From: a virus | Reading direction: 5' to 3' (one strand) | IMG/VR virus record: IMGVR_UViG_3300031578_000398 | Location: 1 to 21,308 of that record | Length of the DNA: 21,308 nucleotides | Shown here: positions 1,142 through 21,308 of the stretch, piece after piece | How positions within the stretch are numbered: position 1 is the first letter of the stretch | How the letters are laid out: every line of letters begins with the position of its first letter | The notes under the pieces: model-generated | Database searches by the model: none | Told to the model about the DNA's origin: nothing | Seen by the model: only the letters and a program-made list of their open reading frames with translations | Made by a program: the position numbers and the translations under genes

Positions 1142-1153
1142 TGAGTCTCCAAA

Positions 1154-3805: not shown

Positions 3806-3806
3806 T

Positions 3807-4454: not shown

Positions 4455-5272
4455 TAAATTTCCTTACCGACACATTCGATATACCAAGGCTTACCATGGG
4501 TGTCACCAACATATTTCGCTGATAGAATTTTGTAATATCCATTATAATCTGTAGACTTTATTTTGACTTTCCTACCTGGTAGAATCTTAGTAGATACTAT
4601 TAGCGATGTAAACTCAAGTCCATCCTTACCCGGTTTGGGTGAACCTATTAAACCAGTATCTTTGGAAAGATATACTGCATCATCATCTGTAGAATTATCT
4701 GGATCAAGAATTTGCAATTCGTTATTTTGAATATTCCATTCTAGGTCCTGTTTTCCAGTTATTGTATCGAGTATTGCTTTAGACGATCCAGAAACGCTTA
4801 TTCCATTTTGAGTTATATCATCTTTCACTGCTGATATTGTCTTTATAGCTGTATTCGATGTCTCCTTAAAAGTAGAAATAACATCATTAACTATTGTTTT
4901 ATAATTAGTACCAGCCTTATAGCTCTTATCAAGCCTAGATTCCCTCAACGCCTTATCTCCATCCCCACATTCGATTTCTGTTACAATATCGGGGCCTTCT
5001 TTTAATGAAACAGTTTTAGTTATATCAGCATCTAGAAGAATATCAGTTTCCTCACCATATCCGATATCTAAAATAAGAACTAGAGATTTCTCTGTTTGGA
5101 GTTTTTTCCTGTGATCTGGATTAAGGTTCCATATTTTTACTTTGGCTGGATTCGCTGATGATGTGGAGCTTCTGAGTACATCGAATGATATTCTGAGTCC
5201 TGATGTTTTAAATCCAAATTCACCACGCTTGCCTACCGTAACCGAGGCTTTTCGCGTCCACAATTTTCCCAT
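4454..5272 (-). CDS. Baseplate hub protein, gp27/gpD-like
   Basis: 272 residues from ATG 5272; a TTG one codon earlier is less likely. GAGG in the upstream gene's last codons provides the binding site. It shows the hub layout: N-terminal beta domain with ISFDVLRSSTSSANPAKVKIWNLNP, YGEETDILLDADITKTVS, then a helical part (YKTIVNDVISTFKE), and a C-terminal domain ending in GLEFTSLIVSTKILPGRKVKI and GKPWYIECVGKEI. Such proteins form the trimeric hub that joins the tube to the central spike, encoded next here. Confidence 0.75.
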   Translation of the reverse strand: MGKLWTRKASVTVGKRGEFGFKTSGLRISFDVLRSSTSSANPAKVKIWNLNPDHRKKLQTEKSLVLILDIGYGEETDILLDADITKTVSLKEGPDIVTEIECGDGDKALRESRLDKSYKAGTNYKTIVNDVISTFKETSNTAIKTISAVKDDITQNGISVSGSSKAILDTITGKQDLEWNIQNNELQILDPDNSTDDDAVYLSKDTGLIGSPKPGKDGLEFTSLIVSTKILPGRKVKIKSTDYNGYYKILSAKYVGDTHGKPWYIECVGKEI

Positions 5273-5592
5273 CAAGTTGCCTCTTCATATAGCAATAAGA
5301 CCTTATCTCCAAGGTCAAGTTCTCCGGCATTTTCATGCTCACTTTCTGTATTTATAGCAAACAAAGTACCTGGTGGGAGATTGGAATCAGCAAATCTGCC
5401 AAGCAAATCATAGTTTACAAGAACAGGAATTCCCATTACGATTTCAGTTCCATCGCTAGTTTTTATTCCAAATATCCAGCGATCTTTTCTTGAATTATAG
5501 TGGATGTCAAAAATATAGACCGTTCCGTCGAGTTCACAGCTAAATTCGTATTGATACAGGTCACTTCTTACCGGTATTTGAATAATTGCCAT
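5272..5592 (-). CDS. Baseplate plug protein, DUF6983-like
   Basis: 106 residues. The opening MAIIQIPVRSDLYQYEFSCE, then YIFDIHYNSRKDRWIFGI and a middle GIPVLVNYDLLGRFADSNLPPG match the small baseplate plug family: a beta protein with W-x-x-x-I and LL-x-R-F/Y signatures. Known members lie between Dit-like and hub genes in contractile phages, as here. The stop overlaps the hub ATG (TGATG). Confidence 0.75.
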   Translation of the reverse strand: MAIIQIPVRSDLYQYEFSCELDGTVYIFDIHYNSRKDRWIFGIKTSDGTEIVMGIPVLVNYDLLGRFADSNLPPGTLFAINTESEHENAGELDLGDKVLLLYEEAT

Positions 5593-6306
5593 TTAACCGC
5601 CTATACCAGTTATCCTTGATAATATTGATCTACCACGCTCCTGAACAGAACTTATTGCCTCTGATGGATTTAGTTTACCTAGGGCCGTCTTAGCAACGGC
5701 CCCAGGTCTAGCGGAAGAAGATATGTTTGCAGGCGGTACAATAATGGACTCACTTGATACAACTCTAACTTCCTTGAACTGAGCCGTGAACGTTAGTGAA
5801 CTTGAAGTTCGCGCATCTCTCTGAATCGATAGATCAGTGATTATGCAATTATTATATGTCCTTAGGCCAGTTATTATTGTAATTGGAATTCTCTTTTCAT
5901 ATATTTGATCGAAAGCATCGTAAGCATTTTTTGATGGCTTACCAGAATAAATTGCAGATTTACCAACAGAAGAAATCGCTCCTGATATTAAAGTGCCACC
6001 TACACCTCCAATAAGACCGCCTACAGCTCCAGAAACATTTCCGAGTAGTGCTAGTCCTATTGTAATCGGATCATCGCTAACAACGCCTGATATTGATAGC
6101 GGCCTTCCTTTTTTTATAACGTGATCGGTTATATTTGATCCGTCTTCTATTTCATGATCCGTTGTTTCTGATTGAAAACCATGAGTCTCGCTGATTACCG
6201 CATCGAGCTTAATAAGTTCCTGCTCAGATCCATCTTCCAGTGCATATTGTATAGTTGTTCTTTTTGATGTCCCTGGACCAAGTGCATCATAAATGCTTTC
6301 AAACAT
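5593..6306 (-). CDS. Dit-like baseplate protein with Gly-rich hydrophobic segment
   Basis: 237 residues. The N-terminal domain (about 13-75 with ETHGFQSETTDHEIEDG, SNITDHVIKKGRPLSISGVV) and the later RIPITIITGLRTYNNCIITDL plus SSSLTFTAQFKEVRVV match the Dit-like fold that starts the baseplate at the tail-tube tip. Residues about 81-117 form an unusual Gly/Ala/Ile/Leu stretch (LALLGNVSGAVGGLIGGVGG), which could be a flexible or membrane-active insert. The position right after the tape measure and before the plug and hub genes supports this call. A LysM-type protein often lies in this area in PBSX-like phages; no LysM motif is visible here. Confidence 0.72.
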   Translation of the reverse strand: MFESIYDALGPGTSKRTTIQYALEDGSEQELIKLDAVISETHGFQSETTDHEIEDGSNITDHVIKKGRPLSISGVVSDDPITIGLALLGNVSGAVGGLIGGVGGTLISGAISSVGKSAIYSGKPSKNAYDAFDQIYEKRIPITIITGLRTYNNCIITDLSIQRDARTSSSLTFTAQFKEVRVVSSESIIVPPANISSSARPGAVAKTALGKLNPSEAISSVQERGRSILSRITGIGG

Positions 6307-7952
6307 TAATATGCCTCCTGTGGTTCGGTCGATCTCGATGCCTGTCTGAATGTCCTACCAAGTGCATCAGAAATTCCACGTTGCACAGCATCTCCAACTT
6401 GGTCCGGTGGGGTTCCTGCTGGAACATTTACTGTAACCGGAGCATTCAAACTTATATTAGACTGTGCGATTCCAGACGCAGGACCGCCCATTGATGCAGG
6501 GACAGGCGATGAGCGCGGAGACATTGATGTTACCGTATTGATAGCGGTGCCAGCCTTATCTAGGGGAATATTTGATGCGCTCATATCACCTGCACCCAGG
6601 AAACGGCCTATTTTTGAAAGGAAACCACCGGCTATATCTGAAATGTTCTTAAGCCATTCCCAAGCGGATTTTAATGGTTCGAGAAATAAATCCCAATTAA
6701 GAGTGAAGAGACCTACCAGCATAGCGGTAAGGCCTCCTATTACTTTTCCAAGTGAATCAACCATATTTGCGATAAATCCGATTACTCCACCAGACTTTGT
6801 TAGCTCAATTATAAATTCACTTATCTTAGCAGTAACCGAATCCTTGCCCTGAAAATATGATATAACGTCTTCTAATATCAACGCAACCATGACAAACCCA
6901 ACACCTATCAGTGTTGGTATTATTGCAGCTTGAATATTTGCAACGCCTATCGCACGAGATAGTAGTTTGAAGACTGTTGACATTTGAGTAACACCCTGGA
7001 CTATCTGTCCTATACCGAATAAAAGCCTCACCCCCATCAATATACCGAATGCAATACCAACAACCTTTAAAACCTTCTCAAGACCTCCGAATAAATTTAT
7101 TACAAAGCCAACGGACCGGCCAAGATCATAAAAAACTTTGTATGCCGTCTTTGCGGAAGTAGCAAGAAATTTCAAGAACGTCCTGAGATTTGACTTTAAA
7201 ACCTCCTTATTTATCTTTATCCACTCGATGAAACTTTTCATTAGATCGGTCATTGTTGGAATGAGATCGTTTCCTATAGCGACCTTGATTCCATCGAACT
7301 GCATTTTTAACCTTGCGATTGTATCGTTAAATTCTTCCCCTGCCATAGCATCAGCATCAGAAATTACAGCACCTGACGCAAGAGCTTCTGCACGAAGATT
7401 TGCTATAGCCTTACTACCACCGTTAAGCATTGGAATTAATTTCATTCCTGATCGACCAAAGAGGTCCATGGCAAGTGCTGTTTTCTTGGTTCCGTTTTCC
7501 ATCTTTTGAAATTGATCTGAAACTTCCATAAAAATTTGATCTGTAGATTTTAAGTTTCCACTAGAATCTTTTACGGAAATACCAAGCTCATTATATGATC
7601 TTTTATAAGTCTCTACTCCACGACTGGCCTCTGATGCTGTTCTTGCTAGTTTTCCCATACTAGCAGTCATTTCTTCTTGTCCGACTCCACCTATTTTTCC
7701 AGCGAAAGCAAGCTCTTGGAGTGACTCTGTTGTAAGGCCAATCGACTGAGCTGTTTTCCTTGCCTTGTCTCCCATGTTGGCAACGGATTGAGCTATTCCA
7801 AACAAAGTTGCTGCCGCTGCTGCTCCTGCTGCTCCAATTATTGTAAGACTTGTTTTTACGCTACTGATTCCGTTATCGAAACGAGCGATTGCAGCTTCTG
7901 ATTGCTTTGTATCTAACGTCCACTTTGTAACCAGTTCCCTTATTGTTGCCAC
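6306..7952 (-). CDS. Tail tape measure protein
   Basis: 548 residues from GTG, with AGAGG five bases upstream. It sets tail length and is ejected through the tube. Seen: N-terminal helical part with a very hydrophobic Ala/Gly stretch (about 37-57), the family motif QSIGLTTESLQELAFAG with following EMTASMGKLAR, AMDLFGRSGMKLIPML (about 161-176), and several hydrophobic segments (about 283-318, 341-365, 387-418) that could insert in the host membrane. The C-terminus is low-complexity and Ser/Pro/Ala-rich. At roughly 1.5 Angstrom per residue (family rule) it predicts a short tail, near 80 nm. The stop overlaps the next start, and CAGGAGG in its last codons serves the next gene. Confidence 0.85.
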   Translation of the reverse strand: MATIRELVTKWTLDTKQSEAAIARFDNGISSVKTSLTIIGAAGAAAAATLFGIAQSVANMGDKARKTAQSIGLTTESLQELAFAGKIGGVGQEEMTASMGKLARTASEASRGVETYKRSYNELGISVKDSSGNLKSTDQIFMEVSDQFQKMENGTKKTALAMDLFGRSGMKLIPMLNGGSKAIANLRAEALASGAVISDADAMAGEEFNDTIARLKMQFDGIKVAIGNDLIPTMTDLMKSFIEWIKINKEVLKSNLRTFLKFLATSAKTAYKVFYDLGRSVGFVINLFGGLEKVLKVVGIAFGILMGVRLLFGIGQIVQGVTQMSTVFKLLSRAIGVANIQAAIIPTLIGVGFVMVALILEDVISYFQGKDSVTAKISEFIIELTKSGGVIGFIANMVDSLGKVIGGLTAMLVGLFTLNWDLFLEPLKSAWEWLKNISDIAGGFLSKIGRFLGAGDMSASNIPLDKAGTAINTVTSMSPRSSPVPASMGGPASGIAQSNISLNAPVTVNVPAGTPPDQVGDAVQRGISDALGRTFRQASRSTEPQEAY

Positions 7953-7954
7953 AA

Positions 7955-8185
7955 TTACCTCTTTGAAGCTCGATCATATTCAAATTGTTCTGCTTCTGCC
8001 TGAATATCTAACGCTTCGTGAATATCGAATAATTGTTTTAGCGTCCATCTTCTTCGTACTTCCTCTAGCGTCGCAACCTTAGCTAGTACCGGCCTCAAGA
8101 AGAGCCAGTCTTTTCCAACGATGTTTGTTTCCCCAGGGTTGTAATTATTTTTGATGCGTAGCTTTGAACGCCGGAAGTTGCGCCG
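7955..8185 (-). CDS. Hidden -1 frame extension of the tail assembly chaperone (GT-type)
   Basis: This 76-codon frame has no start codon of its own in a suitable place and is reached by -1 slippage at 8191-8185. The fusion would have 136 zero-frame residues plus 76, 212 in all. The extension reads on through DWLFLRPVLAKVATLEEVR, RRWTLKQLFDIHEALDIQ and ends AEAEQFEYDRASKR. The W-x-L...hEaLD followed by an Ala/Glu helix is the usual look of the second ORF of tail chaperones. Its stop (7957-7955) lies two bases before the tape measure GTG start. Without this frame there would be about 140 bases of apparent non-coding DNA, otherwise unknown in this tail module. Confidence 0.78.
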   Translation of the reverse strand, partial: RRNFRRSKLRIKNNYNPGETNIVGKDWLFLRPVLAKVATLEEVRRRWTLKQLFDIHEALDIQAEAEQFEYDRASKR

Positions 8186-8592
8186 AAAAAATCACTATAC
8201 TGCACCCCCAGAGCAGCAATAAAAACCTTAAGCATATGGAAAATTCTGCCCTTAAAATGTTCATCAAAACACATCGATACCTGACCTTTTCCATTTGATC
8301 CTGTATGAATTACCTGTTCCATATAAACTCTAATAATATTCAAAACTTTTTTCTCGTGTAGTCTTGAACATAATATTCCTATTGCATCCCCTACAGGACC
8401 CATATCAAGCGACTCTCCAAGCTTATCAAGATCAATATTTCCTATTCCACCCTTAACATTATTTATAACTTGCGCAAGTTTTCCGAGTGACATTCCAAAT
8501 ACATCAAGCAGTGCAATAAGCTCTTCGAATGACTGTCCGGCCATCATCAAACAAAACTGATAATGCTCGCCATCGATAATCTTTTCTTTCAT
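8095..8592 (-). CDS. Tail assembly chaperone, short (zero-frame) form
   Basis: 165 residues, helical, with FEELIALLDVFGMSLGKLAQ, a central GDAIGILCSRLHEKKVLNII and FHMLKVFIAALGVQYSDFF. Its place between tube and tape-measure genes is the conserved place of the tail assembly chaperone pair (lambda G/GT, P2 E/E'). This is the product when ribosomes do not shift; it ends in EKTGSS. A slippery heptamer at codons 135-136 leads to an alternative longer form described separately. The chaperone is expected to coat the tape measure during tail assembly and is absent from finished virions. Confidence 0.75.
   Translation of the reverse strand: MKEKIIDGEHYQFCLMMAGQSFEELIALLDVFGMSLGKLAQVINNVKGGIGNIDLDKLGESLDMGPVGDAIGILCSRLHEKKVLNIIRVYMEQVIHTGSNGKGQVSMCFDEHFKGRIFHMLKVFIAALGVQYSDFFGATSGVQSYASKIITTLGKQTSLEKTGSS
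8185..8191 (-). promoter_or_regulatory. Programmed -1 frameshift site, T TTT TTC
   Basis: Zero-frame codons GAT TTT TTC contain the canonical heptamer T TTT TTC. The -1 frame has a TGA immediately upstream and is then open for 76 codons past the heptamer, exactly as a slip here requires. Tail assembly chaperones commonly use -1 frameshifting. I did not identify a downstream pseudoknot with confidence. Confidence 0.75.
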
Positions 8593-8993
8593 TAATTGCC
8601 CCCAACAAATATATCAGCGTCACCCTCAATCATCCATTCTCGCTCACCGGCTTCTTTATCGAATTCCATATCAGCCGGTTTTACAATAGTTCCCTCTGGC
8701 ATACTGACAATCGATCGTCCAGATCGATCTATAAAACCGCAGGAAAGAAGATCGCCAGTTATAAACTTCTGACTCATGATATCGTTCATATCTGATGCCT
8801 GTGGAACTGTTATTGTAATCTGCGATCTCTTGTTAAGATTTTTCACTCTGGTTGTCTCTCCAGACGTTCCGGTTTGAAATGTCCATCCTTCTTCAACTCT
8901 TGCGACTGATATTTTATTCCAAGATTTTTCACTTGCGAGAGTTCCACCGATCATTAATGTTCCCAGTGAAGGGTCCCATGTTTTAGTTCCCAT
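8592..8993 (-). CDS. Tail tube protein, DUF3277-like
   Basis: 133 residues starting MGTKTWDPSL. An in-frame start at 9080 would overlap the sheath gene; ATG 8993 is preferred because AAGGAG lies six bases ahead. The pattern TLMIGGTLASEKSWNKISVAR, then QTGTSGETTRVKN, then SQITITVPQASDMNDIM and a final EWMIEGDADIFVGGN matches DUF3277, the tube subunit found right after DUF3383 sheaths. It forms the inner tube by stacked hexamers. Its stop overlaps the chaperone start (TAATG). Confidence 0.82.
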   Translation of the reverse strand: MGTKTWDPSLGTLMIGGTLASEKSWNKISVARVEEGWTFQTGTSGETTRVKNLNKRSQITITVPQASDMNDIMSQKFITGDLLSCGFIDRSGRSIVSMPEGTIVKPADMEFDKEAGEREWMIEGDADIFVGGN

Positions 8994-9003
8994 TGTATTC
9001 TCC

Positions 9004-10356
9004 TTATACTGATAGTTTTCCTTGTATTCCAACCTTATGAAGAGCACCCTGATAGTTAGCAGAGAATGTGCAGTTTTCAAGTAATCGCTCTAGTCTATCT
9101 GCGCTCGGTACGTCAGCCCTTAAAGGAACATATACAACAATCGATTCAAGAATAAGAATGTTGTACGGTGCTTTTGATGCGATAGTCAACCTGTTTTGAA
9201 TTTCAGCTGCAACCAGCCCGGTCCCCGCATCAGTAAAAGGAACTTTCTCGTTATTTACCAAAAGCAGCAGAACGTCTTCTGCCATTCTTACCTGAACCCA
9301 ATCGGTACCTACTATTATATCGAAGTATTCTCCACTAACAACAACCCCCTCAGAAGAAATCATATTAATGCCAGGTCCTTCTTCATAGAAGTTTCCATTT
9401 TTCGCTTTTATAATATTTTTCTGAGCAGTTGTAAGATCGTCGGTTGATATGCCAACAAGAGGCTTAAACTTTAGTGTATACGATCCGGGCGACTTAGGAA
9501 GAGCATAACCAAATACTGCAGCTTCTGGATATTTGGCCGTGTCAGCACTATACTGATAATAAGTTCTGTCATAACTAAGAGCGTATAGTGCTTCAAGAAC
9601 GTTTCCTCCTGCCCCAGAAAGAACATCTGCATCGTCAGTGCTAACGCCGTAAACCTTTGGAGGGTCCTGTGCTTCAATGATTGCAGAGTTTGCAAGAATA
9701 TCAGCCTTGAGTCTGGCCTGTGAAACAAGACCGTACCAGTCAGAATCAGCTGCGATAATAGCGGCAAGCGATACTGCGTAGGTCTCATCAGCAGCTCCCC
9801 ATTGGGTGTGTACTGTTGTTGCTGTCGAAACACCAGTTAAACTTGCAACATTATAAACCACAGTTGCAAATTCTGTGTATTGGTCTGCTCCAGTAAATTC
9901 AATTATCTGAGTTAGACTTGCATCTAAGGAACCTGTAACGGTTACCTCAGTAACACCAGCAAGTAGCTCCAAAGCAGCCTTTACAGCAGCAGCGTTAGCA
10001 TCGAATGCGATAGCTGCCGTTGTTGCGGCGCCAACTTTTATTGTATACGTTCCTGCTGTAGCAAGCGCATCGATCGTGGTTGTCTGCTTGTCATTTATGT
10101 TTGATTTCCTTCTTCCAACCTTGAATTGAGAAGGTGAATTTTCCTGAGAATACAAAGACAGCGCAGCTATATAAGCAACGTCTGTTACAACGAAACCGTC
10201 TTCTAGCATCTCGTCTGGATCGGAATAAGTAAGGACTCTGTCTGATTTATTATAATACTCACACTGAATCAAAGCAGTTCCAAATCCCACTCGCGATAGT
10301 CTTGCTGTGGCCCTTGTTATTTGAACATTTACAAAATCAGATACTTTCGCTGTCAT
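9004..10356 (-). CDS. Tail sheath protein, DUF3383-like, with inserted beta module
   Basis: 450 residues. The N-terminus (VSDFVNVQITRATARLSRVGFGTALI) and the SDPDEMLEDGF segment are typical of DUF3383 contractile sheath subunits. The C-terminal part has PLRADVPSADRLERLLENCTF and YQGALHKVGIQGKLSV, the strands that hook neighbouring subunits together. The protein surrounds the tail tube and contracts during infection. Residues about 100-186 (genome 9799-10059) look like an insertion: GTYTIKVG, AIAFDANAAAVKAALELL, VTVTGS, IIEFTGA. A similar module occurs in the gp47-like baseplate protein of this phage. GGAGGA six bases ahead of the ATG supports the start. Confidence 0.86.
   Translation of the reverse strand: MTAKVSDFVNVQITRATARLSRVGFGTALIQCEYYNKSDRVLTYSDPDEMLEDGFVVTDVAYIAALSLYSQENSPSQFKVGRRKSNINDKQTTTIDALATAGTYTIKVGAATTAAIAFDANAAAVKAALELLAGVTEVTVTGSLDASLTQIIEFTGADQYTEFATVVYNVASLTGVSTATTVHTQWGAADETYAVSLAAIIAADSDWYGLVSQARLKADILANSAIIEAQDPPKVYGVSTDDADVLSGAGGNVLEALYALSYDRTYYQYSADTAKYPEAAVFGYALPKSPGSYTLKFKPLVGISTDDLTTAQKNIIKAKNGNFYEEGPGINMISSEGVVVSGEYFDIIVGTDWVQVRMAEDVLLLLVNNEKVPFTDAGTGLVAAEIQNRLTIASKAPYNILILESIVVYVPLRADVPSADRLERLLENCTFSANYQGALHKVGIQGKLSV
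9799..10059 (-). repeat. Inserted beta module, copy 1 (in tail sheath)
   Basis: Encodes sheath residues about 100-186. The pattern is G-T-Y-x-I-K, AI-x-F-D/N-A, AA-x-V-x-AALE-x-L, V-x-VTG, then I-x-F-x-G. Modules with this layout recur in many virion and surface proteins and are usually Ig-like and surface-exposed (general recollection). The boundaries are approximate. Confidence 0.6.
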
Positions 10357-10364
10357 ATTTCCTC

Positions 10365-10898
10365 CTAACTTGCATCTACAAGTATATCAAACGTTGGTTC
10401 GTTTGTCTTCTGAATTCCAACTTTTCTAATTTCTCCGGGAGCATCGGTTTCAGTTGCATTAAAAGCAAATACAACTTCAAGTCCAGCTCTAAGCTCAAAC
10501 TGATCTTCCGATAGAAATGATAAATCAGAAGGACTCTTTGAAGACCTATATACAAGGCCAGCATCACGAAGAACCGACAACACAGTTTCCTTCGATAGCG
10601 ACCTTATTAACTTTGTAGCATAATACATGTGCGAGTCATTCGAATATATATTTATCGATATTGTAACCGCTTGCTTATAGTCTATTTCCCACGTATCTGT
10701 TGATTTGTGTGTCTTGTCTACTCCGCCATCGTCATATGGTCCAGACAGAACATTCAAAAGAACGAATGGAAGTGATGGCCTTTTAACAGAAGGTGCAGAA
10801 ACATCCCGATCCTGATATGACCATATTGTTGTTATTCCAAGAACGCTGTAAACCCAAGTATAGATTGCGTTCTCTATTGTTTCGTCAAAAAAGTTCAT
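10365..10898 (-). CDS. Tail terminator-like protein, LIC_12616 family type
   Basis: 177 residues. The sequence begins with a helix (NAIYTWVYSVLGI) and TTIWSYQDRD, followed by RPSLPFVLLNVLSGPYDDGG, a pattern I associate with the LIC_12616-like family found just before the sheath gene in contractile phages. The central YKQAVTISINIYS strand and the GLEVVFAFN strand near the end fit a tail-terminator fold. Predicted role: caps the tail at the head-proximal end and sets tube termination. The start overlaps the previous stop by one base (TAATG). The stop is eight bases before the sheath start. Confidence 0.72.
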   Translation of the reverse strand: MNFFDETIENAIYTWVYSVLGITTIWSYQDRDVSAPSVKRPSLPFVLLNVLSGPYDDGGVDKTHKSTDTWEIDYKQAVTISINIYSNDSHMYYATKLIRSLSKETVLSVLRDAGLVYRSSKSPSDLSFLSEDQFELRAGLEVVFAFNATETDAPGEIRKVGIQKTNEPTFDILVDAS

Positions 10899-12540: not shown

Positions 12541-13494
12541 TTACGATATTACTGCTGTGAAGTAGCAGCCCATGTCAGCAGCAACTTGTTTCATGTCCTG
12601 ACTGATCTGTCCTTCGATTCTGTCAGACTCAAGTTCTTCCATGCGGAATTTCTTAATTCTGGCTCCACCGACTGCGCCCATATACTGCTTCCAGGACATT
12701 ATGTATCCACCGGAAGGAGCGTAAAGGGACGGACTTGAAGCAGCGTAAACAAGAAGACATGCTTTCGTTCCGAAAATACTTGACATCGAATCAGTCGCAC
12801 CCTCAGCAGCCGAATTCTTTACGGCTCTTGCTACGAGATACTTCTCAACTCCGAATACCTGAGCAATCAACTCTTCGGTTATGATTCCCTTCTGTGTGTA
12901 TTTCACCCTATCGACGATGTCAGGGTGATTTTTCAGTACGGAATGAACGTCAGGAGTAACCACAAGTCTGTTTGGCTTGTAGCCGTGTTTCAGTCTGATC
13001 TCTTCGGTCTTCGCTTCAACGTCTTCGATTGGTGTTGAGTTTGCAGCATCCCACTTCGTCGAAGGTGTGTAGTCAGCAGCGCCGGTCCATATACCACCCT
13101 TGAAAAATCCAGTTACGAAGCGAGTCTCACGATTAATGAGAATCTTCCTACCGACGAATTCTGTTCCAGCCTTGTCAAGATCAAGGGGATCATCGGAATT
13201 GGCTCTCACCGGATCGGCAATGTCCTGATGCCATGCAACTTCTTTGCAGTTGTAGGTATCAGTTTCAACATTGAAACCACCGCCTGCTGACTCTGTTCCT
13301 GGTGCTCTCTCCTGAGCAGTATCACGATACCACTCACCTTTCGGAAAAACAAAATAGCTATCAGATTTCTTCTCGACAGGAACTATCGGAAAAACCTGAC
13401 TTGCTATGAAATCGGGCTGGCTCTGTATCCAGGCCACAAGTATATTCGTAAGCGGTCTATTTACATGAACGCTTGATTGTGAAGGTTGACCCAT
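12541..13494 (-). CDS. Major capsid protein
   Basis: 317 residues, predicted HK97-fold shell protein. Features typical of this capsid family: N-terminal NRPLTNILVAWIQSQPDFIAS with the following FPIVPVEKKSDSYFVFPKG strand; a central helix with a GRKILINRETRFV pattern; NRLVVTPDVHSVLKNHPDIVDRV; and a C-terminal SWKQYMG ... RIKKFRMEELESDRIEGQ region. An AAGGGGG Shine-Dalgarno lies a few bases ahead of the ATG, suiting high expression. Its position after the decoration protein and before connector genes fits. I see no obvious propeptide, so maturation cleavage, if any, probably acts on the scaffold rather than on this protein. Confidence 0.88.
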   Translation of the reverse strand: MGQPSQSSVHVNRPLTNILVAWIQSQPDFIASQVFPIVPVEKKSDSYFVFPKGEWYRDTAQERAPGTESAGGGFNVETDTYNCKEVAWHQDIADPVRANSDDPLDLDKAGTEFVGRKILINRETRFVTGFFKGGIWTGAADYTPSTKWDAANSTPIEDVEAKTEEIRLKHGYKPNRLVVTPDVHSVLKNHPDIVDRVKYTQKGIITEELIAQVFGVEKYLVARAVKNSAAEGATDSMSSIFGTKACLLVYAASSPSLYAPSGGYIMSWKQYMGAVGGARIKKFRMEELESDRIEGQISQDMKQVAADMGCYFTAVIS

Positions 13495-13510: not shown

Positions 13511-14242
13511 TTATGCCGAGTATACGATTACAAGAACGCCGCTTCCTTCGATGAAGGCCGTCGTGCTTGATGCTTCGATACTGATTGCATCCGTTGCGTT
13601 GAATGTGTTGTTTGCTGTTATCGCTGTTGCATTTATTACTGCGCCCAGCGGAGTCATTGTTGCTGATGCAAGAGAAAGAACGCCGCCAGTAACATTGGTA
13701 CTACCAATTTCCAAGTTCAGCGTTGATTCCTTTAAAGCCGTAGTTACAGGATCAGTCACAATGTACATCAATTTTTCAATCGTTCCTGCGAATCCTGGGA
13801 CAAGACTTGTTACCAAATCACCGTCAGCAATTTTCGTATTGTCGATAGGAATGCAGAACGTACCGTAAGAAACGCTATTTCCCTTGGCACTTGCTACCGA
13901 AACAAGGACTGCATGAATTTCATCGGCGGCACCTGATTCAAGTGCTACTCCAACAACTTCATTCGTTCCGGTATGAGGAACTGCTTTGCCATTTGCATCG
14001 CTCATCAACTGCTGTCCTGCGGTTACTGTATTTCCGTAAATAACCTTGGATATACCAAGAGTCCTTACGCTTGTTGCAGCAGAGATCGCAGGGGTATTCT
14101 GAATGACACCGATTCCAGCTTCACCAGCCCCGCACAGTGCTGCGTTTCCGCTTGCATCAACTTTAACAAGATAGAACTGCTTCGCTGAAAAGTCGGCAGC
14201 GGCAAGCAGGGTAATGTCCAATACTGGTACTTCGTAACCCAT
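13511..14242 (-). CDS. Capsid decoration (cement) protein, DUF2190-like N-terminal domain
   Basis: 243 residues. The first half resembles DUF2190 / parallel-beta decoration proteins: Ala- and Gly-rich strands such as FYLVKVDASGNAALCGAGEA, IGVIQNTP and a later AGQQLMSDANGKAVP, with the typical GxGVxxN pattern. The second half (about 120-243) is also beta-rich and low in charge, ending in SGVLVIVYSA; I do not recognise it separately. It could be a surface-exposed Ig-like or spike domain. The start is well fixed by GGAGGT six bases ahead of ATG. That site is formed by the last codons of the scaffold gene, three bases away. Gene order (scaffold, decoration, major capsid) supports the role. Confidence 0.72.
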   Translation of the reverse strand: MGYEVPVLDITLLAAADFSAKQFYLVKVDASGNAALCGAGEAGIGVIQNTPAISAATSVRTLGISKVIYGNTVTAGQQLMSDANGKAVPHTGTNEVVGVALESGAADEIHAVLVSVASAKGNSVSYGTFCIPIDNTKIADGDLVTSLVPGFAGTIEKLMYIVTDPVTTALKESTLNLEIGSTNVTGGVLSLASATMTPLGAVINATAITANNTFNATDAISIEASSTTAFIEGSGVLVIVYSA

Positions 14243-14245
14243 GAG

Positions 14246-15157
14246 TTACCTCCCTTCCTGGTTGTACTCAGAGTACAATTTCGGATTTTCTTTCAGGACC
14301 TTATCGATAGCCTGTTCTTTGGAAATCTTGGAATCTTCCTTCATTACTTTTTCAGCTTCCTTCTCAATCTTTCCCCATACATCGCTGTTTCCAGAAAGGT
14401 TCGATCCAAGTTCTTTTGTGATTATTTTCTGTGCATCGCAAGCCTGTGAATCAATAGCCTTAAGGACTTCATGAAACTTCTTGGATTCCTTTTCATCGAG
14501 GGATGCTTCAATTTTCAAAATAGTCTCTGCGAGTTCTTCTTTCTTGATTCCAATGTGCTTGTACTCTTTTTCGATTTTCTCTTCACACTCTTTTCGGACT
14601 CTCAATGATTTCTCATTTTCAAGTTCCTTCTGGAGCTTCTCAATTCTTGGGTCTTCACCTGGGAGTTCAACTTTTACAATTTCAGTCTCATAAACTTCCA
14701 GTGCCTTGAGAACGGGTTCACGGTGTTCCTTGGCTAGTGCAAGAACAAATTCTTTCTTCATGTCACCGTAAGGTTTCTTGTACGGAGATTTTTCGCCATC
14801 CTGTTTCTTTTCAGGGGCGGCATAACCGTATCCAACCTTTGAAGCGATAACTTTCATAACATCGCCAACCTGATCTTTGTACTTTGCGAGAGTCTTGAGA
14901 GCCATTTTCAGAGCGTCGGATGCGTCGCTTGATAGTGCTTTCTCGATCTTCTCGATTTCTTCTTTTACTTCCTTTGGAAGTTCGCTCTTTGCAATTTCCT
15001 GAAGTTCAATCAGGAGTTCATTTTTTATGTCCATGCTACCTCCATCTTCGGACTTAAAACAAATGAATGGCGTACCGTTTGCGCCCCTACGTTTATTAGT
15101 AAGAGCCGCGATCGCCGTAATTTTAAGGTCCTTAATTTCACGTTTTACTTTTTCCAA
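14246..15157 (-). CDS. Scaffold-like protein with an XkdF-N-terminal-like leader
   Basis: 303 residues from a TTG start (weak AAGAG site upstream). Residues 1-37 (REIKDLKITAIAAL then RGANGTPFICFKS) resemble the opening segment of XkdF, which reads roughly as a lysine-rich strand followed by a small ANxxxF...K loop. The rest is highly charged, rich in Lys and Glu and strongly helical, with a predicted coiled coil around residues 165-235, as expected of an internal scaffolding protein that the protease would degrade. It lies between the protease and the decoration and capsid genes, the normal scaffold position. A strong second start exists at codon 42 (ATG 15034), which would give a 262-residue form lacking the leader. 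Scaffold is inferred from composition and position; no enzyme motif is visible. Confidence 0.75.
   Translation of the reverse strand: MEKVKREIKDLKITAIAALTNKRRGANGTPFICFKSEDGGSMDIKNELLIELQEIAKSELPKEVKEEIEKIEKALSSDASDALKMALKTLAKYKDQVGDVMKVIASKVGYGYAAPEKKQDGEKSPYKKPYGDMKKEFVLALAKEHREPVLKALEVYETEIVKVELPGEDPRIEKLQKELENEKSLRVRKECEEKIEKEYKHIGIKKEELAETILKIEASLDEKESKKFHEVLKAIDSQACDAQKIITKELGSNLSGNSDVWGKIEKEAEKVMKEDSKISKEQAIDKVLKENPKLYSEYNQEGR
15034..15043 (-). promoter_or_regulatory. Internal ribosome binding site and start inside the scaffold gene
   Basis: On the minus strand GGAGG (15043-15039) lies four bases upstream of an in-frame ATG at 15034 (codon 42). It is a better Shine-Dalgarno match than the one before the TTG start at 15157. 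It may produce a separate 262-residue scaffold, or it may be the only real start. Confidence 0.6.
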
Positions 15158-15218: not shown

Positions 15219-18200
15219 TCAAATCTTTTGAACAATCCCATCTCCCTCCATAGAAACGAAATTTATATTTCCATTTTTAACTTCTTGCCATAATTTGTCG
15301 TCTAGAACTTTAAATCCACCGAGCGCATCATGTTCATTTATTTTCTGACCATACCATTCATGGTCTTGCTTGGCAGTCCATAATTCAACCGGAATAATAT
15401 CGCTTGTGAACTTGCCTTCGTGATTTAGCTTAACCTTTCTTGACGATACCATATAGTCATGCAGTGCGTTCTCAAGTACATCTGGATTCCTTATAATATC
15501 GCCGTGCGCATCGGCGCGATTGAATGGATATATTATAGTATAAAATACCTTCTTCTCATCGTCTGCCTTTATGATATTAGCGGACTCTGACTTCGATATT
15601 TTCATCGAGTTGATTACAATTTCTTTCTCGATCTTGCCTGGGTTTTTGACATCAATTATTCGTGGTTTTTCGCCTGGTAAATTCCAGTATATCCACTTTC
15701 TACCCTTACTCTTCTGATCCGCAATTTCACTATCAAGGTCCCTTGACTCAGCGAGAGGAGTCTGATCTACTGGCTTTGTTATCTGCCAAACGTCTATCCC
15801 TTCTCGTCCTGGAAATCTAGAAATTATATAACGACCATTCAACTTCTTTCCCTTTAGGAATATTTCATACGCGTGCAACTTTGCAACACCAAGTTCATAG
15901 GTTCCACTATCCAATGCAAAGAATTTTGAATATGCTTGCGATGTTGATCCAGCCTCTCCGGGTTTCATTACGGCTCCACCTGGTTTCTTGCCAATATCTA
16001 GCCACTCGGTAGGCTGTTCAAGTTTAAATCCACCCCTGAGCGACTCCTTTGGCTCAAGAGCAAATAATTTGCTTCCTCCATTTGCCTTAATATCGCTTGT
16101 CTTACCTTCGAATAAACTAAAACCCCATAGAGCATTTTTACTTTCTAGCCTCAGATCACCATGAACGGAATGATCTGTCTCAAGAAGTTGATTTTCATCG
16201 AGCTTTGATTCTTCCTCACTGAGTCCTCTCCAATGATGTTGATAAACAAACTTTCCTTTTCCACTTTTAGGAAGTAGCTCGATCCAGTTGTTTTCCCAAT
16301 TTCTGATTGCGAGTTCTCCACGCGTTTCCCCTCCCTCGGTATCAGCTTGATTCAATATATTGTGGCCCATGGCTATAAGTGCAAGTGCAACACTTGGAAG
16401 TATTTCTTCATCTTTCTTAACCTGTAAAACTCCCGACCTAGCCGCCATGCTAACAACCTGACCGACAAAATATGGTTGAGTTCTTGCTTTGTCCACGTCT
16501 ATAACACTAGCGCCTAGCCAAGCCAGCTTTTTATTTTCGTCGTCTGGAATAATCTCTAGTACCTTAACAGTTATTATGTCTCCAATATCAGCAGGTATTT
16601 TACTGTTAAATGACTTACCAAGGTTGATGTATTTCCTGCCCGACAGTTCTGTGATGTTTTCATAATAGAATCCGTCACTTGGAAGAATACCACCAAAATA
16701 ATTATAGTCTCCAGACTTACCACGGACTTTATCGAGAACTATAACCTTAAGTTCTATAACCTTTTTTATCTTTGCCATTTCATTTGATGAACCATTTAGT
16801 TGGTAAAACCCTGGTTCGTTCGAAACAAATACAGCCCCCTCAGACATATCAAAACCATATGACCATTTTCCTATTGGTTCAAGTTGATCTTCTGAGTTCG
16901 CCCACTTAACAGGGACTGTATCAAATGAGTATTTCTTGCCAAATTCATCGAGCTTCTTTTTCATTTCGCCATATGGAAGATCATGAATATCATCGTTCAA
17001 GTATGGTAGAAATAAACCTGTAACAACAACTTTCTCGTTGGGACCAAATTCTGGTTCATCCTGATTTAACTTCATCAGGTCCGGTCGTGATAGCCTTTTT
17101 CCATTCGAAGTAATTGCAAGATCAATATCCAATATGAAGGGTTCTTTTATCTTCGAGAACGTTTCCTTTACGTTAGGAAATTTATCTATCTGGTTCTTTC
17201 CAAGTTGACCATCGAACCACATTTCAACCTTTCGGCCATCTCCTATTATCTCTGCCCTAAACCCATTGAGTTTCGGCGATCCTGCTACAGGAAATCTATT
17301 TGAAGCCCAGTCTTTAATTTCGTCTACGGAAAAAGCCTCTGTATATCCTGCCATCGCAGGCTTTGGTAACGCGAATCTTCTGAACGGGGCGAGTGCAGCC
17401 TTTTGAATTAAAGGTTTTACAAGGACCCCTTCCACGTAAACGCATTCTCCATCGGTACGTTCACCGAGCTTCTCAATTTCAAACCTTGGCCTGTCGTCAA
17501 GAAGTTCTTCGTTAACCCAAAACCAGAATGAAGCTTTATTCCATAATGACTTGTGTCCAGGATGAGCAACTGCACCTTCGCCCTTTGTACTTGGAACTTC
17601 GAAAGAAAGTTTTCCTCCTGGAACAAGAACTCGATGAATCTCAGCCATAATCTTCTCTTTATCGGCGACATGTTCAAGAAAATGATTCGCTCTTACTTCG
17701 TTAACGGTACCATCTCCAAATGGAATACCATTTGATAGGTCGTGGATAGTATCGGCTTTTGAATCTTTATTTACATCAATTCCATGCCATCCCTTAGGCT
17801 TATTATTTCCGCAGCCAAGATCAATCTTAACTTTCTCTACATTGCTGGATATTTTCTTGTTAAGTTCGTACTTTATCTTACTGATAGTTTCCTTTAGGTC
17901 GGTGTTCTTTATTCCGTACTTTTTGAGATAGTCCGGTTTTGGAAGTGTGAAGTCTGCCATATCTCCAAGCGCTAGCTTCGCGTGTTCCCCAAGTGCTATA
18001 ACTACGCTTGGATTTATGCTTTCTATTTCCTTTTGAATCTTATCCTGCCAGTATTCAATTTCTTCAATCGATGGTGTCCTGCTAAGACCATTTTTCTCAA
18101 GATATATTGGGACTGCGTTTGAAACATAAACATCTTCAATACTTATTCCAAGTTCATCGAGATAGTATTCTTTAAGTAACTCCTCATTTACTCCACATAT

Positions 18201-18998
18201 AGGAACTCCCAGTTCATACTCTAATTGTCCAGGAGCATCGCATATAAAGGCAACTAGGGCATTATTTGGACCTGACCCATCAACTACATCGGACTTTACT
18301 ATTTGACGCTTGATTTGGTCTTTCCTACGAAGCACTAGATCATAGATTGGGATGTTGTCGCCATGAGCTCCCTGGGGATTATCTATAAAATGAAGACATT
18401 CGCACTTATCTGGATCGATAGCGTTCCTTACGGGAAGTTCTATGTTATCAGCCTGTATAAGAAAGCTGCTTTCTTTCTTACTAGCTCTGAATAAAACATC
18501 AATGTCATTAGGATCTTTTACTCCCTTCGCAGTGGAACCAACAAGACCAACGAAGTCTTGAATTACAACTACTTCTTTTGGAAAACTATTGAAACCACGA
18601 ACACCCTTTGCGATCGACTTAAGATTTTCTATATCACTATAGAAATCCGATTCTTTATCAGCGTTTATACCACGTTTTTCCATTTCCTCTGAAACGAATA
18701 TACCAGCGTTTACAAAGTCTTCAACCGATCTATTTCTTTTCTTTGCCTGTCCATACCATTGATTGAGTCTTAGCCACGCAGATTGTATTTCACTATCCGG
18801 AACGTCTCTTAATTTGGATGGACGCATATCTGTTAAGGCTAACTTCTCAAAGCAAGTTGGTTCATCGTCGATATTATTTCCTTTTCCTCCGGCATATCCC
18901 CTAGCTTTCGCGTGTATCTTTTGAAACATATCATCGTTTACAACTCCAAGTTTCTTCAAATAGTTAAGGAATCCTTCGAGATAGAATTTACTTGCCAT
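15219..18998 (-). CDS. Giant fusion: nucleotidyltransferase, UDG-like, methyltransferase, DNA ligase-like, 3'-phosphoesterase-like and XkdF prohead protease
   Basis: 1259 residues, several times the length of an ordinary prohead protease. Modules seen: helical N-domain (1-135); nucleotidyltransferase fold (140-235) with GS at 154-155, DID at 165-167 and a third acid D220; family-4-like uracil glycosylase (248-365) with DAPGQLE (254-260) and VIALGEHAKLALG; methyltransferase (388-530) with SAM motif DLGCG (393-397) and FLEHV; DNA-ligase-like core (548-760) with K576-L-N-G, FILDIDL (621-627) and EGAVFV (720-725), then an OB fold to about 840; LigD 3'-phosphoesterase-like domain (900-1075) with H946-x-D948-x-R950; XkdF-type protease (1138-1259) with probable catalytic H1193 (LNHEG) and S1249 (FVSMEG). 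The position between minor head protein and scaffold is where a prohead protease is expected. Domain calls are by motif recognition; several enzymatic motifs are degenerate, so activity is uncertain. Confidence 0.85.
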   Translation of the reverse strand: MASKFYLEGFLNYLKKLGVVNDDMFQKIHAKARGYAGGKGNNIDDEPTCFEKLALTDMRPSKLRDVPDSEIQSAWLRLNQWYGQAKKRNRSVEDFVNAGIFVSEEMEKRGINADKESDFYSDIENLKSIAKGVRGFNSFPKEVVVIQDFVGLVGSTAKGVKDPNDIDVLFRASKKESSFLIQADNIELPVRNAIDPDKCECLHFIDNPQGAHGDNIPIYDLVLRRKDQIKRQIVKSDVVDGSGPNNALVAFICDAPGQLEYELGVPICGVNEELLKEYYLDELGISIEDVYVSNAVPIYLEKNGLSRTPSIEEIEYWQDKIQKEIESINPSVVIALGEHAKLALGDMADFTLPKPDYLKKYGIKNTDLKETISKIKYELNKKISSNVEKVKIDLGCGNNKPKGWHGIDVNKDSKADTIHDLSNGIPFGDGTVNEVRANHFLEHVADKEKIMAEIHRVLVPGGKLSFEVPSTKGEGAVAHPGHKSLWNKASFWFWVNEELLDDRPRFEIEKLGERTDGECVYVEGVLVKPLIQKAALAPFRRFALPKPAMAGYTEAFSVDEIKDWASNRFPVAGSPKLNGFRAEIIGDGRKVEMWFDGQLGKNQIDKFPNVKETFSKIKEPFILDIDLAITSNGKRLSRPDLMKLNQDEPEFGPNEKVVVTGLFLPYLNDDIHDLPYGEMKKKLDEFGKKYSFDTVPVKWANSEDQLEPIGKWSYGFDMSEGAVFVSNEPGFYQLNGSSNEMAKIKKVIELKVIVLDKVRGKSGDYNYFGGILPSDGFYYENITELSGRKYINLGKSFNSKIPADIGDIITVKVLEIIPDDENKKLAWLGASVIDVDKARTQPYFVGQVVSMAARSGVLQVKKDEEILPSVALALIAMGHNILNQADTEGGETRGELAIRNWENNWIELLPKSGKGKFVYQHHWRGLSEEESKLDENQLLETDHSVHGDLRLESKNALWGFSLFEGKTSDIKANGGSKLFALEPKESLRGGFKLEQPTEWLDIGKKPGGAVMKPGEAGSTSQAYSKFFALDSGTYELGVAKLHAYEIFLKGKKLNGRYIISRFPGREGIDVWQITKPVDQTPLAESRDLDSEIADQKSKGRKWIYWNLPGEKPRIIDVKNPGKIEKEIVINSMKISKSESANIIKADDEKKVFYTIIYPFNRADAHGDIIRNPDVLENALHDYMVSSRKVKLNHEGKFTSDIIPVELWTAKQDHEWYGQKINEHDALGGFKVLDDKLWQEVKNGNINFVSMEGDGIVQKI

Positions 18999-19005
18999 TC
19001 TTTTA

Positions 19006-19018
19006 CTCCTTACTCCTT
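19006..19018 (-). promoter_or_regulatory. Tandem Shine-Dalgarno that fixes the start of the 1259-residue protein
   Basis: Read on the minus strand, AAGGAG occurs twice in a row (19018-19013 and 19011-19006). The second copy is seven bases from ATG at 18998. This favours ATG 18998 over an in-frame upstream ATG at 19052, which would overlap the previous gene by 43 bases. The doubled site suggests strong initiation or standby binding; that effect is inferred. Confidence 0.7.
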
Positions 19019-19954
19019 GACCTCTATATTTGTCGTAATCGTGCATGAACAATTAGGGTGTGCTGGCGGAGCATAAACAGAATCTCCATCCGGTAGAATA
19101 AATGGATCATTAATGGGGACCGTTACGCCATCCATGGCTTGGCAGATTTCACAAGAACCTCCCCCTGCTTCCCATGTTTTTGTTGATTTATCTGGATCAA
19201 CCAAACCTTGATCTGCTGCTTGATTCCAGACCTCAATCTCGCCAGTGTTAGCAGCGTCCATTGCTTCTGTTCGAGCTACCATTTCGGCCCTATCGCGAAG
19301 TAATTTATCACGATATTTTCCAACCATTTTCTCGTAGTCTTGTAGCGGAATATTTGCAGCCTTAAGTTTTTCTCTATAATTTAAAAGTGCATTGGCCTGT
19401 GGTTGATTAAGTCCTATGTCACCAATTAAATTCTTAGCTGCCTTTCGATGTGGTATTCCATACTGGTTTATATCGAATACAGCTCCCCTAACAATATCCA
19501 TAACGCTTCCCTTCGTTTCGCGTGATAGATTTGTTATTCTCTTTCCTATCTCACTTGAAATATATTTCGACACCCTTGGATTATTGATATCGAATATGAG
19601 ATTTGGTTTTATAACTTTAGGAACGAGATTCTTCTGAGTATTTGCTGCTGCCCTTGCAATCGTCTTTGTGTACGAATCTTTCATCGGCGCTAGATTGAAG
19701 TCAAGTTTCTCCCATCCAAGAGCCTCATTAATTGCCTTAGTTGACGGATTTTTCTTTAGTAGTTCACGTGCAACTTCCTCTATTGATATTTTGTCCTTGA
19801 ACTGTCGCATTCCATTTAAAAAAGAAGTTTCAAAGAAGCTTGACATATTATTTGCTAATTTGCGTTTCAATGATAGCTGGTTCTTTTTAGATATTTTTGA
19901 AATAAATACTTTCGACTTCTTAATTGTGAGCTTTGGTTCAGGATAGTAGAACAT
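19010..19954 (-). CDS. Minor head / head morphogenesis protein, SPP1 gp7-like
   Basis: 314 residues; minor capsid protein normally encoded directly after the portal and thought to sit near the portal vertex. The first half is basic and helical. The diagnostic part is the C-terminus: a WEAGGGSCEICQAMDG segment (about residues 261-276; C268, C271) followed by PPAHPNCSC (H299, C302, C304). This matches the Cys-rich C-x2-C ... HPNCxC signature of the phage Mu protein F / SPP1 gp7 family and could bind a metal. Preceding it is the usual MVARTEAMDAANTGEIEVW helix. The ATG overlaps the portal stop by one base. The stop lies 11 bases before the next start, and its final codons form part of a doubled Shine-Dalgarno sequence. 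Confidence 0.88.
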   Translation of the reverse strand: MFYYPEPKLTIKKSKVFISKISKKNQLSLKRKLANNMSSFFETSFLNGMRQFKDKISIEEVARELLKKNPSTKAINEALGWEKLDFNLAPMKDSYTKTIARAAANTQKNLVPKVIKPNLIFDINNPRVSKYISSEIGKRITNLSRETKGSVMDIVRGAVFDINQYGIPHRKAAKNLIGDIGLNQPQANALLNYREKLKAANIPLQDYEKMVGKYRDKLLRDRAEMVARTEAMDAANTGEIEVWNQAADQGLVDPDKSTKTWEAGGGSCEICQAMDGVTVPINDPFILPDGDSVYAPPAHPNCSCTITTNIEVKE

Positions 19955-21228
19955 TAAATGTCACTTTCGGGTGCAGGAATACCGCAAATTTTACGGACCC
20001 ACTCTTCCATTTTCTCGTCAGGTTCGATTACTCCTGCGTTTACCATATCAACTACAAATTTTCCAACTATCATAAGATCAACGGCCTTCACTCCGCCATG
20101 ATTTAGAGTGGGTGGATGAGATATGTCTTTTCCGTTGAGGTCGAGAAGTCTTGGGATTGCGTGTCTGTTATAGGTCTCTTTAATTATATCAAGCATGGCT
20201 GTTATACCAAGAGCCATCCAGTTGTTTTTTTCTCGTGCGAGCGCCAAAGAACCAACACTTTCTAGACCTAATAGAAGAACGTCAGACAGTAAAGATAGTG
20301 CTATGAACTTATTATATCGCATAATCGGACCATTAAGATCAATTGACCTGGACCCTGCGGAAGTTAGTAAGTCAACATCATATAGAAATTGGCCCTTATC
20401 ATCTCTATCCGATGGGATCAGTAAGTAGGCTTGTTCATCTGTTCTTAAGTTCTTTCCAACTTTCTGCCAATGTTCAAGTATCTTCTTATCTATAGTCGAG
20501 GCACCCTCCAATAATATCTTCGCCGGTACCCTTAATTTAGGTATTCCGCAGCCATCGCGTTCTGCTGAAATAGCCTCTATTTTTTGAAGTTCCTTTGCGT
20601 AGTACCACGGTTCGTAAGCACCTCGAAGAAGTGATTCACCTTCTGGATTGTTTCGCGCTGCTGAGGTTCTAAATAATAAGCATTTTTCAATTGGTAGATA
20701 TACATCCTTGTAGTCTGGTGGGGCAGATTGAGTTACACCTTGAATCCCTCCAGTTGAATCAAAGTCCCAATTGTCTATCAAGGTGTCTGGTGCTCGTCCA
20801 GCAATTTTTCGCCATCCTATAAGTCCATCGTTGTGTTTGCTTCTCTTTGATGGCTCTTTACTTGGTCCGTTACGCAATTTGTAAACTATTTCAGAATATT
20901 CAAATCCATTCCATGGAAACTCCATGTGTTCACTGATTGTGTCGGTCCACGAAGAAGACATATCATTCAAACACGATTCGACAAACTTTGCATCTTCCTC
21001 ATTACCTTCTGGATTGGGGTCGACTCGCCACATGACAGGTCGGATAGATAGTGTAAACGCTTTTATCATTCCTGAAACAACAGGATTTGCACGCATTTTT
21101 TTCCATACCTTAATCGCTCGTGCTCCCTTGAGTTCACTCAGATACTCTTCATCGAGATAACCGTCAAATCGTTTTAACCCCGACGAACCTATTTCCTTAA
21201 ATTTGCTTGACGGTTCATATTTAGACAT
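19954..21228 (-). CDS. Portal protein, DUF935 / Mu gp29-like
   Basis: Predicted 424-residue portal, the dodecameric ring at the capsid vertex through which DNA is packaged and ejected and to which the neck attaches. The early part has the family pattern: a helix with KVWKKMRANPVVSGMIKAF, then SIRPVMWRV and acidic residues, then the MEFPWNGFEYSEIVYKL segment. A later GWRKIAGRAPDTLI stretch and a conserved LLRGAYEPWYY helix follow, as in DUF935 proteins. I chose ATG at 21228 because AAGGA lies about nine bases upstream; a TTG two codons earlier would be only three bases from that site. The reading frame is open to the window edge, so a longer N-terminus cannot be fully excluded. The stop overlaps the next start (TAATG at 19954), indicating coupling with the minor head protein. 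Confidence 0.88.
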   Translation of the reverse strand: MSKYEPSSKFKEIGSSGLKRFDGYLDEEYLSELKGARAIKVWKKMRANPVVSGMIKAFTLSIRPVMWRVDPNPEGNEEDAKFVESCLNDMSSSWTDTISEHMEFPWNGFEYSEIVYKLRNGPSKEPSKRSKHNDGLIGWRKIAGRAPDTLIDNWDFDSTGGIQGVTQSAPPDYKDVYLPIEKCLLFRTSAARNNPEGESLLRGAYEPWYYAKELQKIEAISAERDGCGIPKLRVPAKILLEGASTIDKKILEHWQKVGKNLRTDEQAYLLIPSDRDDKGQFLYDVDLLTSAGSRSIDLNGPIMRYNKFIALSLLSDVLLLGLESVGSLALAREKNNWMALGITAMLDIIKETYNRHAIPRLLDLNGKDISHPPTLNHGGVKAVDLMIVGKFVVDMVNAGVIEPDEKMEEWVRKICGIPAPESDI

Positions 21229-21308
21229 ATTCAAGTTTCCTTTCGAGGGCCATGTGTGGAGATCGTATGCTTTGAAATAATGATATACGACTAACTCCGT
21301 ATTTACAA
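21221..21308 (-). CDS. Possible C-terminal end of an upstream gene (partial, cut by right edge)
   Basis: From the right edge a frame is open for 28 codons and ends with TAA at 21223-21221, overlapping the portal start by 8 bases. The visible residues end in ALERKLEYV. Stop/start overlaps of this kind are the rule in this operon, and by gene order in Mu-like and related phages the gene before a DUF935 portal is usually the large terminase subunit. The fragment is too short to show any terminase motif, so the identity rests on position alone. The portal frame is also open to the edge, so openness alone does not decide which frame is coding here. Confidence 0.35.
   Translation of the reverse strand, partial: CKYGVSRISLFQSIRSPHMALERKLEYV

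Follow-up and report, generated by a model that had tools for sequence, protein, structure and literature searches.

Phage polyvalent proteins, among them DarB of phage P1 and the MuF fusions, unite numerous unrelated enzyme domains within a single chain, usually sit among virion genes, shuffle domains between relatives and, as has been proposed, are packaged in the virion and delivered by injection (Iyer et al. 2017, PMC5512222). The present analysis concerns a 1259-residue frame on the minus strand (15219-18998) of a 21308-base IMG/VR record (IMGVR_UViG_3300031578_000398), a fragment of a tailed virus that is known solely through environmental DNA; the whole fragment is termed the window, and the relatives of this frame. 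Its domains are, in order, a nucleotidyltransferase (NTase), a uracil-DNA glycosylase (UDG)-like domain, an S-adenosylmethionine (SAM) methyltransferase, a DNA ligase, an OB fold, a LigD-type 3'-phosphoesterase (PE) and an XkdF head maturation protease. An earlier model-generated note on this DNA, the original prediction, had read the frame as a chain of DNA-repair-like enzymes fused to the capsid protease; the single frame and the order of the named modules were confirmed by Pfam, family profiles and structural modelling, and all of these modules exist, but the OB fold (residues 736-848) had been overlooked.

The window family shares with described polyvalent proteins its disparate catalytic domains, the late virion-gene location and the exchange of domains between homologues, and methyltransferases, NTases and 2H phosphoesterases belong to the described repertoire as well. 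In contrast, no core of DNA ligase, PE and UDG on a head protease is described there: the main text of PMC5512222 mentions neither XkdF nor LigD, its ligases are RNA ligases only, and 'uracil' appears solely in a reference title. Polyvalent proteins are thus already known, while the fusion of a DNA-repair core to an XkdF head protease appears, as judged from sequence, to be a new variation, of which no description was found among open-access papers.

A second point of reference is LigD of bacterial non-homologous end joining, which likewise combines an ATP-dependent ligase and a PE with a nucleotide-adding partner domain in one polypeptide. This partner is a primase-type POL domain in LigD, whereas the window family features a Pol-beta-type NTase and the head-protease fusion; no Pfam match to the archaeo-eukaryotic primase-type POL domain appeared in either the window protein or the scanned relatives. 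According to the account in PMC7719229, which cites Pitcher et al. 2006, the mycobacteriophages Omega and Corndog are tailed phages that rely on end joining for infection success, and supply Ku while borrowing LigD from the host; the window virus, on the other hand, itself encodes ligase and PE, which are possibly carried in the head. In African swine fever virus, DNA polymerase X and DNA ligase are listed in the virion nucleoid and proposed to stand ready for the genome as it enters, yet this repair set of a eukaryotic virus consists of separate proteins, includes an AP (abasic site) endonuclease and a dUTPase, and is devoid of a protease fusion (PMC12172490).

Finally, homologous XkdF proteases adjoin portal and/or capsid genes in isolated phages (Lactococcus phage 28201, Rhizobium phage RHph_TM16, halovirus HSTV-1), but these proteins comprise only about 210-470 residues and show no match to ligase, PE, UDG or NTase. 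The gene of RHph_TM16 annotated as 'DNA methyltransferase/prohead protease' was dismissed as a precedent fusion, as it encodes only about 210 residues. XkdF proteases in MN988459.1 (L131:3980-4612) and similar Lactococcus phage records are labelled 'DNA methyltransferase', the shortest being too short for such an enzyme, and phrog_1530 bears the same label, which looks like a naming error.

Recurrence, synteny and selection

As a single-sequence query against viral contigs, the window protein retrieved no relatives. A degenerate pattern of the QHHWRG motif recovered 59 loci, of which 53 contain family frames longer than 200 residues, and together with a subsequent alignment-based scan yielded 86 distinct related frames, nearly all from IMG/VR contigs; since the PE motif served as the search probe, this set is biased towards PE-motif proteins. 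Counting the window, the XkdF domain is well covered in 57 members and the ligase domain in 54. The order NTase-ligase-OB-UDG-PE-XkdF occurs in 15 frames, and the full domain set, which additionally comprises a methyltransferase, in 11, with the UDG domain following the OB fold. NTase-UDG-PE-XkdF and NTase-ligase-OB-PE-XkdF are each represented by six frames, NTase-methyltransferase-ligase-OB-PE-XkdF by five, and forms devoid of XkdF also occur. A UDG domain between NTase and methyltransferase in the presence of a ligase is confined to the window among the recovered frames. The original prediction had proposed a search of viral metagenomes for the same architecture and had itself raised the concern of a chimeric assembly, which is ruled out because numerous independent contigs carry the domain set as well.

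Against isolated phages, tblastn with the ligase-PE part and with the N-terminal domain gave no match, and only plain XkdF proteases, none of them fused, were present in the collection searched. Hence, the family would be missed by work on cultured phages. A provirus-like locus (L061:5923-10822) was found in a metagenome-assembled genome labelled Dehalococcoides sp. JdFR-54, where a metallo-beta-lactamase gene is followed by two D12 methyltransferases, NTase, ligase, OB fold and PE with a zinc ribbon at the end; this module adjoins terminase, portal and MuF genes and lacks the XkdF fusion. Beyond this genome, the host search turned up a close relative in just one other, out of 400 from that phylum. 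A DUF2213-like gene, possibly encoding a protease, lies at 19869 of the same locus.

The window frame starts with the ATG at 18998, immediately after the stop of the MuF gene, and ends at 15219. Window-type portal/MuF genes upstream and/or scaffold, decoration or capsid genes downstream were found on 27 contigs, 13 of which feature both sides. In more distant viruses the pieces form separate adjacent genes in unchanged order. For instance, terminase and portal genes (both assigned by reading) are followed in L055 by separate NTase-ligase, PE and XkdF genes, L015 encodes an NTase-ligase protein and then a PE-XkdF protein, and in L020 a metallo-beta-lactamase-NTase-ligase gene precedes a triple-PE gene. 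Because the unfused versions keep the gene order, the core appears to constitute a functional unit, fused or not. These unfused and partly fused versions at the equivalent place indicate that fusion is non-essential, as would be expected if it were an expression device only, with the protease releasing the N-terminal part late in infection so that it works in the cytoplasm as ordinary repair or anti-defence enzymes. We regard this as quite unlikely, since late expression would come too late for problems at entry and the C-terminal placement of XkdF in the majority of members speaks for selection to accompany the prohead.

Between close relatives, the ratio of non-synonymous to synonymous substitutions (dN/dS) lies at 0-0.26 wherever it is calculable, across all domains, and the domains of the relatives are under strong purifying selection. 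The modules named in the original prediction are borne out as a recurrent, selected DNA-repair and joining set, fused to a head protease within a head-gene cassette.

Domain identities and active sites

The domain identities, as well as their recurrence, synteny and purifying selection, rest on comparison of sequences, and searches of Pfam, PHROG and PDB with the NTase, ligase and PE regions of the window alone gave weak matches or none; these families emerge only from alignments. The ligase thus escapes Pfam in the window protein by itself, while DNA_ligase_A_M is detected in 18 of 19 aligned members, all except the window, at E <= 0.01. At the same threshold, XkdF was found in 17, UDG in 12 and LigD_N in four of the 19. 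The family profile matches an archaeal DNA ligase in the PDB (E 2.5e-26), and a fold search with an AlphaFold model of residues 535-1259 (pLDDT 82) retrieved human DNA ligase 1 (E 2e-14) and, among its further matches, the ligase domains of LigD; both adenylation fold and OB fold were recovered in this region by model and fold search. Across the family the motif I Lys (K576 in the window) is present in 51 of 52 members and the motif IV Glu (E720) in 50 of 51.

Pol-beta NTases, 2H enzymes and ligases are known from RNA repair, and a Pfam RNA_ligase match (E 3.5e-5) was obtained in one of the 19 aligned members, both of which would suit a core acting as an RNA or tRNA repair kit against RNA-cleaving defences, with NTase, ligase, phosphoesterase and in some members 2H. 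Such a role is nevertheless very unlikely, given that DNA ligases are the top matches of both the ligase profile and its fold, and that UDG and D12 methyltransferases act on DNA.

LigD_N is weak in the window protein (E 0.009) and well above the cut-off in the relative L122 (56.9 bits against 31.1). The PE-XkdF profile gave weak PDB matches (E 0.003-1), five of eight being known PE structures with the right blocks aligned, and the second His and the Glu of the PE are conserved in 83 of 83 members each. The Pfam family Peptidase_S78_2/XkdF covers residues 1140-1253 of the window protein (E 5e-14, 52.8 bits against a cut-off of 24); His (H1193) occurs in 56 of 57 and Ser (S1249) in 56 of 56 members, and both are presumably catalytic.

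In the N-terminal region, the signature GS(x9)DID is near-invariant (G 49/49, D 49/49, D 48/49), and the third carboxylate, D220 in the window copy, is Asp in 43 of 49 aligned members. A PDB search with this region gave a single hit, itself an NTase (E 0.24), and NTP_transf_2 marginally exceeds its cut-off in the relative L127 (21.5 against 21 bits). The GS...DxD motif and these two matches point to an NTase. The fold check suggested in the original prediction succeeded for the ligase, whereas Foldseek with a moderate-confidence N-terminal model returned a list dominated by methyltransferases. The adjacent SAM methyltransferase is matched by Methyltransf_11 (E 3e-7), a hit that, like those of UDG and XkdF, exceeds the Pfam cut-off in the window protein itself.

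Pfam UDG was detected at residues 242-368 (E 1e-10, 42.4 bits against a cut-off of 24.3), and the family profile matches a uracil-DNA glycosylase in the PDB (E 4.8e-17). UDG_fam4 of NCBIfam gave E 1.6e-16, yet at 60.5 bits its score stays below the cut-off of 125.3. UDG family 4 is defined by motif A GE(A/G)PG, a motif B His and Fe-S cysteines. Motif A reads CDAPG in the window and GASPG in most relatives, its acid being mostly Ala throughout the family, and no Fe-S cysteines are conserved in the window copy or the family alignment; on these residues, the window UDG is not a canonical family-4 enzyme. In addition, the window copy carries K354 where 33 of 35 members have the motif B His, F663 in place of the ligase motif IIIa Asp (52/54) and S726 in place of the motif IV Lys/Arg (52/54). 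These departures are unique or nearly so, and judged by them the window copy is an atypical member of its family.

The three departures, together with the loss of the motif-A acid, would be in line with enzyme folds that are losing their catalytic function and now mostly fill the head as structural or DNA-binding elements. On the contrary, ligase, PE, NTase and XkdF keep near-invariant catalytic residues across the family and dN/dS is low, which renders this explanation most improbable.

Variable modules and the fate of the cargo

An end-joining or repair role would best fit the core of NTase, ligase and PE. Of the two pathways named in the original prediction, end joining therefore agrees with the core, while base excision could apply to some members only, UDG and methyltransferase being optional. 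The variable slots are predicted to hold, besides UDG and methyltransferases, nucleotide-signal phosphodiesterases, namely Acb1 and 2H, metallo-beta-lactamase and DHH domains. In L031 an Acb1 (anti-CBASS) domain with both H-x-T motifs lies between NTase and methyltransferase (Pfam E 1.6e-23; PDB Acb1 E 8e-9). 2H domains occur in L081 and L085, a DHH/DHHA1 phosphodiesterase domain on the NTase-PE-XkdF protein of L103 (6774-9029), and D12 adenine methyltransferases in L002, L061, L095, L125 and L127. Metallo-beta-lactamase domains are found in L002, L087, L113, L115, L122, L126 and L127 as well as in the gene adjoining the L061 module; their identity with Apyc1 is not claimed, as the one tested matches Apyc1 weakly and other phosphodiesterase-like structures better. 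Since these phosphodiesterases and adenine methyltransferases share the polypeptide, the payload would be a broader one for invasion and counter-defence than the repair cargo of the original prediction.

We consider it somewhat probable that the protein is a virion-targeted polyvalent head protein whose cargo is a LigD-like core for DNA-end repair and joining that the XkdF protease brings into the head and that is probably expelled along with the DNA; packaging, cleavage, ejection and enzyme activity are what we infer here. The C-terminal protease, with its conserved His and Ser and its gene between portal/MuF and scaffold/capsid, would make the protein part of the procapsid programme. The protein would enter the procapsid together with scaffold and be cut by the protease, the cargo remaining in the mature head and exiting with the genome, after which it could act on the incoming DNA by repair, sealing or joining and weaken host defences ahead of phage gene expression. 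In the constant core, the PE would clean 3' ends, the NTase add nucleotides and the ligase seal, a logic resembling that of LigD, and the accessory enzymes would suit threats to the incoming genome such as base damage, restriction and nucleotide-signal defences. The head-protease fusion would provide both the route into the procapsid and the means of release.

The late-gene position adjoining portal and scaffold, as well as the combination of ligase and end-cleaning, would equally suit enzymes that act in the infected cell or procapsid during assembly, mending nicks, gaps, uracils and ends before or during packaging while the fusion localises them at the portal or prohead. This seems unlikely, however, as nucleotide-signal phosphodiesterases such as Acb1 are part of the polypeptide and have no obvious role in packaging.

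Several points weigh against a cargo that is ejected and active. In many phages, fragments of scaffold and protease exit the head, and the cargo could be lost likewise. No Ku, AP lyase or AP endonuclease was recognised, although no systematic search for them was made and the window is a 21-kb fragment; the AP enzymes bear on the proposed base-excision pathway as well. Moreover, an active repair set as originally envisaged does not hold in full for the window copy, whose own ligase and UDG have each lost near-invariant active-site residues, and the positions that we take, by eye, to be equivalent to His84 and Tyr88 of LigD appear replaced in the PE family.

More specifically, a tailed virus might package and eject its own LigD-like end-processing and joining machine, freed in the head by the fused protease, so that its genome is repaired or circularised upon entry, while an exchangeable counter-defence slot would be occupied, for example, by Acb1; this proposition is advanced tentatively, as possible rather than probable. 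If the cargo is indeed packaged and ejected, the family would offer a natural platform for protein delivery and an end-joining route that is encoded by the phage and acts at entry. The variable slots may also serve as a guide to counter-defence enzymes, their occupants being candidates and Acb1 one example.

Feature coordinates and further observations

Table 1. Predicted features of the window around the multidomain head protease gene, in the direction of transcription.
Feature	Position	Strand	Details	Basis
Portal protein (Mu type)	19954..21306	-	upstream; 5' end beyond the window	domain/profile matches
MuF-type head morphogenesis protein	19010..19954	-	upstream neighbour	domain/profile matches
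Ribosome-binding site GGAG	19006..19009	-	11 nt upstream of ATG, just past MuF stop codon	sequence
Multidomain head maturation protease (polyvalent protein)	15219..18998	-	1259 aa	frame, Pfam, alignments with relatives
N-terminal helical region and Pol-beta-type NTase	18318..18893	-	residues 36-227; GS 154-155, DID 165-167, D220	
UDG-superfamily domain	17910..18278	-	residues 241-363; motif A CDAPG 253-257; K354 in place of motif B His	
Class I SAM methyltransferase	17412..17828	-	residues 391-529; DLGCG 393-397	
ATP-dependent DNA ligase nucleotidyltransferase domain	16827..17363	-	residues 546-724; motif I K576-LNG; motif IV EG 720-721; F663 replaces motif IIIa Asp	
Ligase OB fold	16455..16793	-	residues 736-848; motif V KIKK	
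LigD-type 3'-phosphoesterase (PE)	15783..16328	-	residues 891-1072; QHHWRG 920-925, HGDLRLE 946-952, H1042/E1045	
XkdF (Peptidase_S78_2) head maturation protease domain	15243..15581	-	residues 1140-1252; H1193, S1249	
Scaffold-like protein	14246..15157	-	Lys/Glu-rich; downstream neighbour	function inferred from composition and position
Head decoration/scaffold-family protein	13511..14242	-	phrog_673	phrog match
Major capsid protein	12541..13494	-	phrog_1005, E 6e-81	phrog match

Further insertions were observed in individual relatives. One member of 2592 residues (L127:2964-10739) contains an intein that splits the ligase as well as LAGLIDADG, HNH, adenine methyltransferase and metallo-beta-lactamase domains, and a LAGLIDADG segment between two PE pieces in L126:3522-8363 is probably an intein in the PE domain. 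A PAPS-reductase-like domain lies within the NTase-ligase-PE protein of L128 (5034-9164) and may hint at a connection with DNA phosphorothioation or nucleotide chemistry. For the head protease polyprotein of L031 that harbours the embedded Acb1 domain (3237-7445, minus strand), the PDB search also weakly matched the portal protein of Pam3, which may possess a related domain. In the window itself, the downstream genes at 473-10898 resemble, as far as can be read from the frames, genes for the tail and baseplate of a phage with a contractile tail.

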